A DNA stretch of 64,000 bases, from NCBI GenBank assembly GCA_023663725.1, contig JAMPGX010000007.1:86787-150786 (forward strand), given 5' to 3'. Source of the stretch: a bacterium (GTDB taxonomy: Bacteria > Bacillota > Clostridia > Lachnospirales > Lachnospiraceae). This document shows, piece by piece, positions 37,039 through 47,768 of this stretch. A model generated the notes under the pieces. It did no database searches and was not told the DNA's origin. It worked only from the letters and a program-made list of their open reading frames with translations. Numbering within the stretch: the first letter of the stretch is position 1; each line of letters opens with the position of its first letter. The translations under genes and the position numbers were made by a program.

Positions 37039-37110
37039 GCGCGAGTGGCTCAGCGGTGGAGCACCTCCTTGCCAAGGAGGGGGTCGCGGGTTCGATTCCC
37101 GTCTCGCGCT
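37039..37110 (+). tRNA. tRNA-Gly (anticodon GCC)
   Basis: Acceptor stem GCGCGAG pairs with CTCGCGC. The anticodon stem is CCTCC/GGAGG with loop TTGCCAA, giving GCC. The T arm contains GGTTCGATTCC. CCA is not encoded. The 3' end is the attachment site of the integrated element: bases 37090-37113 recur at 47745-47768. Confidence 0.95.
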
Positions 37111-37113
37111 CTT
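37090..37113 (+). other. left attachment site (attL core)
   Basis: These 24 bases from the tRNA T arm to just past its end are identical to 47745-47768. The integrase gene ends 91 bases away, as is usual for tRNA-targeting tyrosine integrases. Confidence 0.88.
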
Positions 37114-37124
37114 TTTAAATGTGT

Positions 37125-37158
37125 GGGAACGTTGATTTTATCAGCGTTCCCGCTCTTT
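37125..37158 (+). terminator. element-supplied terminator for tRNA-Gly
   Basis: GGGAACG (37125-37131) pairs with CGTTCCC (37145-37151), followed by GCTCTTTG. It may replace the original terminator, now displaced to 47776. Confidence 0.5.
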
Positions 37159-37175
37159 GTGTGTGTCTGAAAAAC

Positions 37176-37193
37176 TGTAGACAACTGTAGACA
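37176..37193. repeat. tandem TGTAGACA octamers, left end
   Basis: TGTAGACA at 37176-37183 and 37186-37193. A matching pair, TGTAGACA (47680-47687) and GGTAGACA (47691-47698), sits inside the right end. They are likely arm-type binding sites of the integrase. Confidence 0.65.
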
Positions 37194-37204
37194 GTACTTT
37201 AGTA

Positions 37205-44840: not shown

Positions 44841-45161
44841 ATGAAGAATATTAAAATTATGGCATGTTTGGGTCTTGTATCATGTTCTTTATTAACTGGC
44901 TGTGTTGGGGCTTACGCTGACGAGGATACTGCCCCGCCTGTAGCTGAGCAGGTTTTTAATGATTTGCAGTCTGTTTCTTCTAGCGATGCCTATCATTCTT
45001 TAATCAATTCAAAAGTTAATTCTGGTGAGTTATCTGAGATAACAACTGATCCTAATGGGGCAAAAATATACGGCTCTGATGGTACTATTGGTTATTCAAC
45101 AGACCAGAGTATATTGGATAAGATGACAGAGCTAGACAGAGCGGCAGGTCTAATAGACTAA
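44841..45161 (+). CDS. small lipoprotein with the CAP-protein C-terminal module
   Basis: The 106-residue protein has a lipobox (CSLLTGC, Cys21) and a short mature chain. Its last 55 residues follow the end of the CAP protein closely: GTIGYSTDQSILDKMTELDRAAGLI against GTIEYSNDSDILSKMEELDRAAGLI. The start follows GGGAGGT. Nothing else is recognised. The module may be an interaction or assembly tag shared by the two surface proteins. Confidence 0.75.
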   Translation: MKNIKIMACLGLVSCSLLTGCVGAYADEDTAPPVAEQVFNDLQSVSSSDAYHSLINSKVNSGELSEITTDPNGAKIYGSDGTIGYSTDQSILDKMTELDRAAGLID

Positions 45162-45186
45162 TAATATTGGTTTGGGAGGTTTAAAT

Positions 45187-47580
45187 ATGAAAATAAGAAA
45201 GAAGATCAGTAGGGCTTTTGCAATGATATTAGCAGCGTCCTTAACATTGACTGGCTGTGTATCGTCAGATTTTTCGTTTTATGCGGATACTGTAAGTGGC
45301 AATTCGGCCGAGTCGGTTTCTGGGGGCGACTCTGTATCGGGCGGTGATTCCGTATCTGGTTCAGATATTATCGTTCAAGAAGTGGACAAGGTATACTCTT
45401 TAGACGACGGAGCTGACTGCCCTTTGTATGTACAGGTATCCGAGGGCGGTTCTCTATCCCTAGAGGGTAATAATCATTACATAGAGATATCAAGACCCTC
45501 TCAGGGTACTGCATCTGTATCTATCGACGGCTCTACTGAAGAGGTAGCCCTTAGTTATGATGGCCTGTTTATGTTTGATTATTTTGAGGAAGGTACTCCA
45601 ATCCAAATTAATGCAAATGCCTATGACGGGTATAAGATTGCTGAGTACTCTGAGTTGTCTGATGCGGGGGATGTTACTCTTTCTAAGTTAGATTTATCTG
45701 ATAAGTACTCACACATTTCTACCTTTGTTGTTTCCCCCAATAGTAGGGTAGCTGTAAGTTTTACAGAAGAGCATATTTATGATCTGTTTATAAACGTAGA
45801 GAATGACGGTACTACTGCTATTGCTTGGGATGATGAGTGTAGATGGGTAGAGTGTTATGACGGAGAGCTTACTTTGTATGACGGCGATTGGAACGAAGTG
45901 GCCATGTTTTATTCTGAAAATGGCAGCTTGTATCTGGGCGCTTTTCCCGAAGATACGGTATTCTTTGTAGGTTTACAGAGTGCTGATAGTACTGTAATAT
46001 CTTATGAGTTAAAGTCAGAGTCGGGAAATTCTCTTGAGTTTCAGTCATTCGATTTTATGGGCGAAACTTGTCTAACCTTAGTTCAGGATACTTACATGTA
46101 TATCAACTACATGGCTGAGGAAGATATGTCTTGGCTTGAGCCTATACTTGCTTTAGATTGGAGGTCTTCTACAAGTGCAAGATGCCTTTATGATTTCGAG
46201 GGCAATGATGACCCGAATACGGGCGTAGGTAGGGTATATTGGGGCGAGACAGTCGAAGAACTTATCGCCATGTATAACGATTCTACCTTTGATATGTCTG
46301 ATGATTGGGGTGCTTTTTTCGTAAACACTATCTATGAGGGTACTGACTATAACGGCTTGTTATACCTCGCCAAGAATGGGTATACCTTTGAGGGATTAGT
46401 AGATAGGTGCTGTGAAACCCTATCTGGTAGTATATGGGATATAGTTAATGCTGATAACGGGATACAGACTCTTGCGTCATCTCCTCTGGGTACTAAGGGT
46501 ATAGTTAAGTATTACTCCAATTACAATACGACTGCTATACTGCCCGAAATATTTGGTTCTGATCGCCATAATGTGCTTGCTTTGAAGATATTTGCAAAAG
46601 GCTCTTCGTCTGGCGGTGTAGAGGCTTTTTGTATTGACCCAGACAAACCGATGGTGAGCGGTACTACAGTATCTATTGCGGACTATTCAGACGACGAGAC
46701 TTCTTTTAAGTCTGTTTCAGACGGTGTTATGTCTTTAGGTACTCAGCTCTCTATAAAGAAGTCTGTAACTGGTTATTGCCAATCTTTTGGTAAGCCTGAG
46801 TATGATAGTATTCAGAGGCCTAAGCAGAGGTATAATTATAACGAAAGCCGCTTGTATCTATGGACTTCTGGTGGTCAGCATGCTCAGGAGAATTTTTTAA
46901 AGTCATTAGCAGACTATAAGATGACAAATAGTAAGGACGGTCTGGGTTGGTCATATGATGATCTGATGGATTGCGAGGGGAGATTTCATACATCAACCAT
47001 AGTTGCGTGGAATATTGGGGAATACCCTGGATATGACGGATTGCCATTTGAAAATGATGACTGGTGTAAAGAATACTGGAGGCGCTATGGTAACTTAATG
47101 TATTTTCCATCTGCTGTGTATAAGGGAGATATATATCTTTGGACAGACACTGGTGAGCTTTCTTCATCCAAACAGCGACTAATAACATGGAAGATTCCCA
47201 AGACTACCACAACTACGGGTACGCCGACTCCTACTCCTATTGCTGGAACAGGTACGGTTTTTGTCAATAAAACTGACATGAATGGTAACGGTCTGGCAGG
47301 CGGTCTATTTGGTGTATATCCTGCTGATTTATCAGGTCTTGTAGGGGTTATTACTACTGATGCGTATGGTGCAGGTTCTTTGAGTGGTCTGCCTTTAGGT
47401 GCTTACTATATAATGGAGGTAACGCCCCCGCCAGGCTGTGTTGCTAATCCCTCAATTACTGCCTTTTCTATTTCGGACGGTACGGGTTTTACTTATACGT
47501 TTAGTGCGGAGAATGTAAAGCGTTTTCCTTTGCGAAATAGATTATGCTTGCAAATTGTTCAGGATAAGTTTATAGTATAA
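45187..47580 (+). CDS. large surface lipoprotein, thioester-like and SpaA-type adhesin
   Basis: The 797-residue protein has a lipobox (LTLTGC, Cys24), then VSGGDS repeats. A long beta-rich region follows (about 60-430). A thioester-domain-like part comes next (about 440-640), with GVEAFCIDPDKP as the likely reactive Cys segment. After a TPTPTP linker, one SpaA/Cna-B-like domain follows (about 690-780: GTVFVNKTDMNGNGLAGG, GAYYIMEVTPPPG). Thioester domains bond covalently to host proteins. There is no LPXTG motif; the C-terminus ends abruptly after the SpaA fold, so it may be truncated. The ATG after GGGAGGT is chosen. Confidence 0.7.
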   Translation: MKIRKKISRAFAMILAASLTLTGCVSSDFSFYADTVSGNSAESVSGGDSVSGGDSVSGSDIIVQEVDKVYSLDDGADCPLYVQVSEGGSLSLEGNNHYIEISRPSQGTASVSIDGSTEEVALSYDGLFMFDYFEEGTPIQINANAYDGYKIAEYSELSDAGDVTLSKLDLSDKYSHISTFVVSPNSRVAVSFTEEHIYDLFINVENDGTTAIAWDDECRWVECYDGELTLYDGDWNEVAMFYSENGSLYLGAFPEDTVFFVGLQSADSTVISYELKSESGNSLEFQSFDFMGETCLTLVQDTYMYINYMAEEDMSWLEPILALDWRSSTSARCLYDFEGNDDPNTGVGRVYWGETVEELIAMYNDSTFDMSDDWGAFFVNTIYEGTDYNGLLYLAKNGYTFEGLVDRCCETLSGSIWDIVNADNGIQTLASSPLGTKGIVKYYSNYNTTAILPEIFGSDRHNVLALKIFAKGSSSGGVEAFCIDPDKPMVSGTTVSIADYSDDETSFKSVSDGVMSLGTQLSIKKSVTGYCQSFGKPEYDSIQRPKQRYNYNESRLYLWTSGGQHAQENFLKSLADYKMTNSKDGLGWSYDDLMDCEGRFHTSTIVAWNIGEYPGYDGLPFENDDWCKEYWRRYGNLMYFPSAVYKGDIYLWTDTGELSSSKQRLITWKIPKTTTTTGTPTPTPIAGTGTVFVNKTDMNGNGLAGGLFGVYPADLSGLVGVITTDAYGAGSLSGLPLGAYYIMEVTPPPGCVANPSITAFSISDGTGFTYTFSAENVKRFPLRNRLCLQIVQDKFIV

Positions 47581-47679
47581 AAGAGAAATAGATAAACAAA
47601 AAACATTAGTGCAGCGAGGAGCAGAACGTCGAGGGGCTTGAAAATGCTGTTTATGTAAATTATGGCTAGAAATCAGAGT

Positions 47680-47698
47680 TGTAGACACACGGTAGACA
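47680..47698. repeat. tandem GTAGACA octamers, right end
   Basis: TGTAGACA (47680-47687) and GGTAGACA (47691-47698) mirror the pair at the left end of the element. Confidence 0.6.
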
Positions 47699-47744
47699 GT
47701 GTGCATTCCTCCTTGATTTTATGGGCTTTCCGGGGTCTAATAGT

Positions 47745-47768
47745 GTTCGATTCCCGTCTCGCGCTCTT
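47745..47768 (+). other. right attachment site (attR core)
   Basis: An exact copy of the last 24 bases of the tRNA-Gly region at 37090-37113. The 5' part of a tRNA is absent here, so it is the element junction, not a second tRNA. Confidence 0.88.

Follow-up and report, generated by a model that had tools for sequence, protein, structure and literature searches.

Between positions 37090 and 47771 of the 64,000-nt stretch analyzed here (contig JAMPGX010000007.1, positions 86,787 to 150,786; hereafter the window), a 10.7-kb mobile element is inserted in the tRNA-Gly(gcc) gene of a Lachnospiraceae genome. It encodes an integrase, a replication initiator (Rep) and an FtsK-type ATPase, and it raises the question by which route an element of this kind moves. 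Integrase, Rep and an FtsK-like protein are also the gene set of the actinomycete integrative and conjugative elements (AICEs), and a first-pass annotation had called the element AICE-like. The genes it carries place it among the integrative and mobilizable elements (IMEs) of class 4 and not among the AICEs. Our preferred reading, to which we give a probability of about three in four, is an IME in tRNA-Gly(gcc) with a Rep-driven copying and relaxase step, in which a two-subunit coupling protein of the TcpA type would link the DNA to the channel of a helper.

Boundaries and gene order of the element

The ends of the element, its transfer module and a hairpin within it are as follows.

37039..37111, plus strand: tRNA-Gly(gcc), integration target (ARAGORN; Rfam RF00005, 66.7 bits)
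37090..37113, no strand: attachment (att) site, tRNA side, 24 nt identical (repeat search; whole-genome search)
37205..38410, minus strand: tyrosine integrase (PF00589, E 1.9e-22; 74% identical to L044)
38522..39826, minus strand: CRESS-type Rep/relaxase, HUH nuclease and SF3 helicase (PF01719 and PF00910)
39862..39893, minus strand: 10-bp perfect hairpin, loop TGGGCTTGTCCT, candidate double-strand origin or origin of transfer (oriT) (hairpin survey)
39970..40722, minus strand: soluble FtsK/TcpA-type ATPase, 250 aa (PHROG 1358; PDB 6o1w; TcpA profile match)
40712..41290, minus strand: membrane protein, 192 aa, proposed membrane half of the coupling protein (11-nt overlap with ftsK)
41375..41677, minus strand: o100, small cassette protein, 100 aa (44-57% identical to counterparts in three other elements)
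47745..47768, no strand: att, distal copy (repeat search; whole-genome search)

The minus-strand operon reads o100, 192-aa membrane protein, 250-aa FtsK-type ATPase, Rep and integrase. It is accompanied by two Xre regulator genes and then three lipoprotein-like cargo genes on the plus strand. The Pfam match of the integrase agrees with its earlier annotation as a tyrosine integrase.

Direct repeats of 27 nt flank the element (37090-37116 and 47745-47771). They are identical at 26/27 positions, including the first 24, and the left copy is the 3′ end of tRNA-Gly(gcc), which bears out the att repeats proposed before. When up to two mismatches were allowed, the 24-mer was found in the genome as two perfect copies at the element ends and one 2-mismatch copy elsewhere.

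Empty sites were sought with the GGDEF gene to the right of the element in 138 genomes of the genus. It matched at E ≤ 1e-60 in 20/138 genomes (own genome included), and apart from the own genome four of these 20 have >65% identity. Two of the four, G480 and G051, have an empty site, where nagZ, tRNA-Gly(gcc) and the GGDEF gene follow directly on one another; ~145 nt separate the tRNA from the GGDEF gene in G051. In G462, the sequence stops inside the tRNA, presumably because the contig ends there. G021 has an att copy of 30 nt beside the GGDEF gene; beyond it lies other DNA, which reaches the contig end and carries a different PF00910-containing, CRESS-type Rep (L084/L102, G021:C79, about 8.4-12.4 kb). 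This suggests that a second, different element, of which only one end is in view, probably uses the same tRNA-Gly site. No tRNA-Gly stood beside the gene in the distant GGDEF matches scanned (L086-L093). The first-pass annotation had held that a tRNA with neither empty-site relatives nor variation would speak against mobility; both the empty sites and the different occupant exist. The element has defined boundaries and gene content, and its site occurs empty. As a separate observation, two tandem Rep-integrase modules lie beside tRNA-Gly(gcc) in L161 (G442:C11), the membrane-ATPase pair being present in only one of them.

The Rep protein

Because PF01719 (origin-binding, E 3.4e-8) and PF00910 (helicase, E 7.7e-8) both match in Pfam, the Rep is by its domains an HUH-SF3 protein of the CRESS (circular Rep-encoding single-stranded) type. 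Of the earlier 'HUH Rep', the HUH nuclease half stands; a plain HUH Rep it is not, as the SF3 helicase is also present.

Identity is 67% to the Rep of L044, a Lachnospiraceae metagenome-assembled genome, and 53% to that of Clostridium moniliforme. Plasmid records gave 32 matches, with 18 phytoplasma records (42-46% identity) heading the best 20 of 32. The closest Rep relatives come from Bacillota-type and phytoplasma records. At E ≤ 1e-3 (own genome included), 13/117 relatives and 22/392 genomes of the order matched, mostly distantly. Of the Rep pattern matches in genome contigs, 34/92 were confirmed, and these relatives are mostly Clostridia. Motif III reads YQIH in the window and YMTH and YLTH in two phytoplasma Reps. 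Many Rep relatives have an adjoining tyrosine integrase, and some related Rep loci have no ATPase nearby. Scans of viral contigs with the Rep, a Rep alignment and an ATPase alignment returned no relatives.

The nuclease half of the Rep matched 19 inovirus-like and other phage records with 27-41% identity. Together with an RstR-like Xre repressor, a small beta protein and a P-loop motor, this would be compatible with a filamentous-phage satellite. We find such an origin scarcely credible: the motor matches TcpA, a tyrosine integrase stands beside the Rep in many relatives, and none of the ten element proteins gave a convincing structural match in PHROG, just as phage structural genes had been reported absent. 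PHROG also paired the ATPase and the Rep with terminase models, which was put down to P-loop noise.

The same genome encodes a second SF3-helicase Rep of 391 aa (L117, G000:C2:2847-4022), with no ATPase or integrase recognized within ~6.5 kb.

A soluble motor and its membrane neighbor

The ATPase is FtsK-like according to PHROG 1358 (E 2e-18), Pfam FtsK_SpoIIIE matching only at E 0.04, below its cut-off. Its best PDB match is 6o1w, a 'DNA translocase coupling protein' (E 5.5e-4), and the annotation as an FtsK/TcpA-type ATPase is thereby upheld. The protein aligns to single-chain TcpA over the motor (C-terminal) half only (hhalign probability 99.3). With 250 aa, Walker A at residue 38 and no transmembrane (TM) segment, it does not contain the TcpA membrane half in the same chain. 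A membrane open reading frame (ORF) of 192 aa lies directly upstream and overlaps the ATPase gene by 11 nt. We infer that the two products form a two-chain coupling protein of the FtsK/TcpA family.

The split module recurs across the surveyed loci. A profile of three ATPases was run against 392 genomes of the order and 391 of the class and yielded 54 distinct loci. The order search matched 35/392 genomes with 41 matches, 30 of which were given loci and ten of which, without a locus, were left uncounted; the class search matched 25/391 genomes. TM segments were called from hydropathy alone throughout. Short ATPases (235-287 aa) accounted for 15/54 loci and, clustered at 90% identity, remained 15. 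In 14/15 the ORF directly upstream encodes a membrane protein of 189-268 aa, and a CRESS-type Rep adjoined in 14/15, the exception being L164, where the stretch ends. Long ATPases (373-525 aa) accounted for 37/54 loci; they had an N-terminal TM segment of their own in 36/37, a separate membrane ORF in 0/37 and a CRESS-type Rep in 2/37. The 36 with their own TM segment represent 17 clusters and are thus less diverse than the count implies. Two of the 54 loci were cut. Wide stretches added four short ATPases outside the survey count, of which two belong to the uncounted order matches (G098, G188); three of the four had the membrane ORF (L111, the second copy of L160, and L162).

These counts bear on another explanation, an integrative plasmid that replicates only after excision, whose motor partitions or resolves copies within the cell and which spreads by transformation or phage. 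Consistent with it, the ATPase is not nearby at some related Rep loci, the host genome has no helper of the expected type, and the Rep resembles the Reps of pCRESS plasmids; most pCRESS groups consist of integrated plasmids according to excerpts of PMC6668415. The tie of the short motor to a CRESS-type Rep at 14/15 diverged loci argues in the other direction, as does the motor itself, which is closest to TcpA coupling proteins and accompanied by a membrane protein. We therefore rate the plasmid as unlikely, though deserving to be kept in view.

In ten pairs the membrane and ATPase ORFs share 1 to 38 nt or have a gap of 3 nt between them, and their frames differ; the gap is 11 nt in L164. Since the overlaps fall in different frames, programmed frameshifting from the membrane ORF into ftsK was rejected and translational coupling is preferred as the likely arrangement. 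The length of the membrane ORF plus the Walker A position amounts to 225-308 in the ten pairs, compared with Walker A at 228-275 in 18 single-chain TcpA proteins. The membrane partners belong to at least three sequence families. An AF2 (AlphaFold2) model of the 192-aa protein has an N-terminal helix (pLDDT 66.6, weak), and the Foldseek matches of this model were not credible. In L160 (G098:C56), an 18-kb stretch contains two short-ATPase modules in opposite orientation, of which only one has the membrane ORF.

The order o100-membrane-ATPase-Rep-integrase is the same in L044, with amino acid identities of 57, 53, 71, 67 and 74%, respectively, and the integrase-side end of that element carries a different tRNA-like fragment. 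Two other elements, L110, from a different family of the order (G187), and L187, from another part of the class (G557), encode o100 with 44 and 56%, the membrane protein with 32 and 34% and the ATPase with 67 and 71% identity to the proteins of the window. Their Reps are recognizable over the helicase only (31 and 26%), and their integrases are 21-22% identical. Since the trio of o100, membrane protein and ATPase is kept with other Reps and integrases, it behaves, on these comparisons, as a cassette across replicons. If this is true, cassette exchange would make the coupling cassette, and not the relaxase, the conserved unit. The AF2 model of o100 is all-beta (pLDDT 52.8, weak); speculatively, o100 is possibly an all-beta ssDNA-binding protein. 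Profile comparison of o100 with DUF961/HelP gave no match, and a control between two DUF961 groups was also weak.

Secretion genes near long and short ATPases

A VirB4 of the FA type, in pieces in L195 and L197, is present in each of seven stretches around long ATPases (L192-L198, at most 19.5 kb). The corresponding profile was built from four of the seven and detects the three independent loci (L194, L195, L197). One of the stretches, in G410 (L193; L131 is a narrower stretch of the same place), encodes VirB4 (AAA_10, 538 bits), TcpC and a lysozyme-like/NlpC protein (Pfam), a Rep_trans relaxase and two DUF961 genes.

With profiles for FA-type VirB4, VirB6, the lysozyme-like protein and the other VirB4 of the host, nothing was found in the 64-kb window and in 24 related stretches, which are short-ATPase loci and CRESS-Rep loci of limited length, so that more distant genes would escape. 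The controls of the lysozyme-like and host-type VirB4 profiles overlap their training sequences, and the profile of the two VirB4-like proteins of the host does not detect FA-type VirB4. The window is thus free of VirB4-type genes by FA-type and host-type profiles, as had been stated. Genes of a type IV secretion system (T4SS) in intact relatives, which had been named as evidence against a mobilizable or stripped-down element, were likewise not found in the stretches fetched for short-ATPase relatives.

A hairpin upstream of rep

A hairpin with a stem of ten perfect base pairs (TACGGGGCCT-TGGGCTTGTCCT-AGGCCCCGTA, loop core GGGCTTGTC) is located 35 nt before the rep start. Its counterpart in L044 (TACGGGGTTC-AGGGCTTGTCA-GAACCCCGTA) has the same loop core, and its stem is changed at three paired positions. 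Besides the hairpin at 39862-39893, no GGCTTGT hairpin was found in the 64 kb. An inverted repeat at 41698-41749 (20 nt, 80% complementary) was also weighed as oriT but gave way to the conserved hairpin.

Hairpins of this type recur at diverged Reps. A profile search gave 118 Rep ORFs, of which 85 were left after removal of copies with the same last 200 nt and 81 after four had been dropped for too little upstream sequence; many of the 81 are distant Reps or fragments. A hairpin was counted if it had ≥7 perfect base pairs and the pattern at the loop, between 300 nt before and 150 nt after the ORF start, and expected counts were derived from 20 dinucleotide shuffles each. The three loop patterns were picked after viewing the hairpins, and the shuffles control for chance, not for that pick. 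GGCTTGT hairpins were present at 23/81 Reps (0.0 expected), A-N-TATTA hairpins at 20/81 (0.35 expected), or 19 when L028, spurious by eye, is left aside, and CTACGA hairpins at 5/81 (0.05 expected), including the doubtful L034. By motif III, assigned with a crude regular expression, 22/23 of the GGCTTGT class are on YxxH Reps with one unassigned, 17/19 of the A-N-TATTA class are on YxxK Reps with two unassigned, and the CTACGA class occurs on both types.

Fifteen of the 19 loops in the second class read TAGTATTAC, which we take to be the nonanucleotide of circovirus-type origins. Such hairpins lie near the rep 5′ end in L187 (10125-10154), L110, L019, L041, L128, L153, L175 and others, which are elements in the chromosomes of Clostridia-type genomes; L187 and L110 are listed as L163 and L032 in the hairpin count. 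The loop of the third class, ACTACGAC, as seen in L139, L162, L070 and L015, presumably resembles the nick site of pMV158. Among phytoplasma plasmids, pAYWB-II has a GGGCTTGT hairpin ~266 nt before rep and pCPa a shorter variant with the loop AATGGGCTGTC. A GGCTTGT hairpin upstream of rep, as in the gut elements, was seen at the phytoplasma plasmid-type Reps L199 (NC_007718, 3743-3773), L046 and L047.

The hairpin classes provide predicted nick sites for dozens of elements, and the literature sampled contained no demonstrated nick site for PF01719-helicase IME relaxases. The loop common to circovirus-type origins would add non-protein evidence for the proposed link between bacterial integrated plasmids and CRESS-DNA viruses.

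Comparison with known systems

The element has att direct repeats and its own integrase, a relaxase of the rolling-circle replication initiator type and no VirB4 or T4SS found, as expected of an IME. A PF01719 and PF00910 relaxase with a tyrosine integrase, TcpA being optional, corresponds to IME class 4. The ATPase is FtsK-type and related to TcpA, and the N-terminal membrane domain is not in the same chain. According to excerpts of Coluzzi 2017 (PMC5357655), IMEs with replication-initiator relaxases are common in streptococci, and the class-4 IMEs there have a Rel_PF01719-PF00910 relaxase, TcpA in 4/15 and a compact structure with an excisionase gene between relaxase and integrase. As in the elements described there, a tyrosine integrase, PF01719 and PF00910, and a TcpA-type ATPase upstream are found in a compact arrangement without a T4SS. 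Unlike them, the present element has a two-chain coupling protein preceded by o100, a non-streptococcal host, a tRNA-Gly site and lipoprotein cargo, and between its relaxase and integrase genes no excisionase was found. What goes beyond IME class 4 is the split ATPase/membrane module and the hairpin upstream of rep.

The pCRESS4-8 and pCPa-like integrated plasmids (Kazlauskas 2019, PMC6668415, as excerpted) resemble the element in their HUH-SF3 Rep, site-specific att-flanked integration and a Y-x-x-H motif III, and the Rep is 42% identical to that of pCPa over the full alignment. The same excerpts place pCRESS4-8 in a YLxH supergroup, which differs from the YQIH of the element, and the main text of that source, as far as available, does not mention FtsK, integrase, nonanucleotide or stem-loop.

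The split gene order is already visible in the public record of plasmid p4M from Bifidobacterium pseudocatenulatum (NC_003527; L201, 1170-3812). It has a small ORF of 95 aa, a membrane ORF of 147 aa with one hydrophobic segment, an FtsK-like protein of 258 aa and a Rep of 341 aa, with overlaps of 4 and 1 nt among the first three. Unlike the element, p4M is a free 4.5-kb plasmid with no integrase annotated and a Rep of a different group. The motif A-N-TATTAC is absent from it, and none of its eight strongest hairpins has a GGCTTGT loop.

Integrative and conjugative elements of the Tn916/ICEBs1 type likewise have a TcpA motor upstream of a rolling-circle type relaxase and small genes in front, but differ by a single-chain TcpA (457-478 aa in seven wide stretches), Rep_trans, DUF961, VirB4 and TcpC. 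Two-part VirD4-type coupling proteins such as TraJ/TraI of pIP501 combine a membrane-less ATPase with a small membrane protein, and excerpts of PMC7434980 state that some VirD4-type coupling proteins need a TraJ-like membrane partner. Those systems belong to conjugative plasmids and are VirD4-related (PMC7434980, same excerpts); here the protein is of the FtsK/TcpA family in an element without a T4SS. A split coupling protein, or such hairpins in bacterial integrated elements, is reported in no title or abstract opening among the matches listed, which is not proof of novelty. We know of no earlier two-chain FtsK-type coupling protein; if true, the split motor would be the first.

In an AICE-like mode of self-transfer, the FtsK-type protein would move double-stranded DNA between cells without a T4SS. 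The set of integrase, Rep and FtsK-like protein and the lack of T4SS genes in the related stretches examined are in line with this. Its Rep carries PF01719 and PF00910, which we take not to be the AICE type, its 250-aa soluble ATPase has neither a membrane part nor an FtsK_gamma match in Pfam, and its host belongs to a phylum other than that of AICEs; in this host, mycelial mating is not expected. We consider AICE-like transfer very improbable. With relatives mostly from Clostridia, 'AICE-like' holds as a functional analogy only, and the 'stripped-down self-mobile' element suggested by the first-pass annotation is without positive evidence. Its other suggestion, a mobilizable element borrowing a channel, fits best, as the gene set is that of PF01719-PF00910 IMEs with TcpA (PMC5357655, excerpts) and no T4SS was found in the window and the 24 stretches.

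A proposed route of transfer and the search for a helper

For the preferred reading, a helper-dependent IME, the following course can be proposed. The Xre proteins would keep the element silent, and the integrase would excise it to a circle. The Rep would nick the loop of the 39862-39893 hairpin and stay attached via the motif III tyrosine, while its SF3 helicase would peel off the strand, serving both rolling-circle copying and the relaxase step of transfer. The FtsK/TcpA-family coupling protein, made of membrane subunit and soluble ATPase, would deliver the complex of Rep and DNA to the secretion channel of a conjugative element in the same cell, with the FA (Tn916/ICEBs1) type as the likeliest helper. 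To have an integrase, a nicking Rep that brings its own helicase, an origin hairpin and a TcpA-type motor but no channel agrees with what has been published as a proposal for IMEs with initiator-type relaxases (PMC5357655, excerpts); newly proposed here is a coupling protein supplied as separate membrane and motor subunits.

Several observations weigh against this reading. The search for the expected FA-type helper was negative in the host assembly (draft, 95.96% complete), which has no TcpC and no Rep_trans. The only two VirB4-like loci of the host genome, L122 (G000:C8) and L123 (G000:C33), are of the P-loop_TraG type, which we take to be FATA-type, and are probably other conjugative elements. 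No adjoining membrane ORF was present at the short ATPases of L150, in the survey, and L113, outside it, and in L153 the membrane ORF is present and the ATPase has a hydrophobic stretch of its own as well. No homology between the membrane ORF and the N-terminal half of TcpA was detected by profile comparison or fold search, the profile comparison being uninformative because the N-terminal halves of three single-chain groups also fail against the main one. Hairpins of the three classes were absent from 18 YxxH Reps, and from 12 YxxK and 4 unassigned Reps as well. No match to one Tn916-type Xis was obtained in the window or L044; an Xis of this type lies between rep and int in L187 (Pfam) and L110 (homologue of that in L187). 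Finally, TcpA is missing in 11/15 streptococcal class-4 IMEs (PMC5357655, excerpts).

The lack of a recognizable excisionase and of the expected helper would also suit a decayed, immobile remnant. This is quite improbable, given that the five genes of the module are all open and keep the gene order of L044 with 53-74% amino acid identity, that ends and hairpin are intact, and that the Xis match was not found in L044 either. The negative search for an FA-type helper in the host genome argues for a guest that is waiting for a helper or has arrived from elsewhere.

A broader proposal is that the two-protein FtsK-type complex (anchor and motor, with the small beta protein) is a portable cassette, exchanged among different CRESS-type replicons by elements that lack a T4SS, and that the class-specific hairpin (GGGCTTGTC for YxxH, TAGTATTAC for YxxK) is both origin and oriT, virus-type Reps acting as conjugative relaxases in gut Clostridia. 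We offer it tentatively, at slightly less than an even chance.

Regulators, cargo and end repeats

The other features of the element are the following.

37176..37195, plus strand: paired TGTAGACA repeats, candidate arm-type integrase sites (repeat search)
41849..42280, minus strand: Xre repressor, RstR-like (HTH_3, 2.7e-8; NF041951 RstR, E 3.9e-13, below its cut-off)
42745..43134, minus strand: Xre regulator (HTH_26, 1.9e-18)
43152..44396, plus strand: cargo, lipoprotein with SH3 and CAP domains (PF00188, PF08239)
44769..45161, plus strand: cargo, small lipoprotein (C-terminal motif in common with the CAP protein; repeat D1)
45172..47580, plus strand: cargo, 802-aa lipoprotein with SpaA domain (PF17802, E 8.1e-10)
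47680..47700, plus strand: paired TGTAGACA/GTAGACAGT repeats, near the distal end (repeat search)

At either end of the element, the paired TGTAGACA-type repeats resemble integrase arm sites. Of the four TGTAGACA copies in 64 kb, three lie within 100 bp of an element end; four copies were reached in 6/100 shuffles, so that this statistic alone is weak. Both Xre proteins, annotated as such before, were confirmed by Pfam. The assignment of the cargo as surface lipoproteins is supported by lipobox-like signal peptides, read by eye in the three ORFs. The motif GTIxYSxDxxILxKMxELDRAAGLI occurs at the C-terminus of two of the cargo lipoproteins (window 44316-44389 and 45081-45154).

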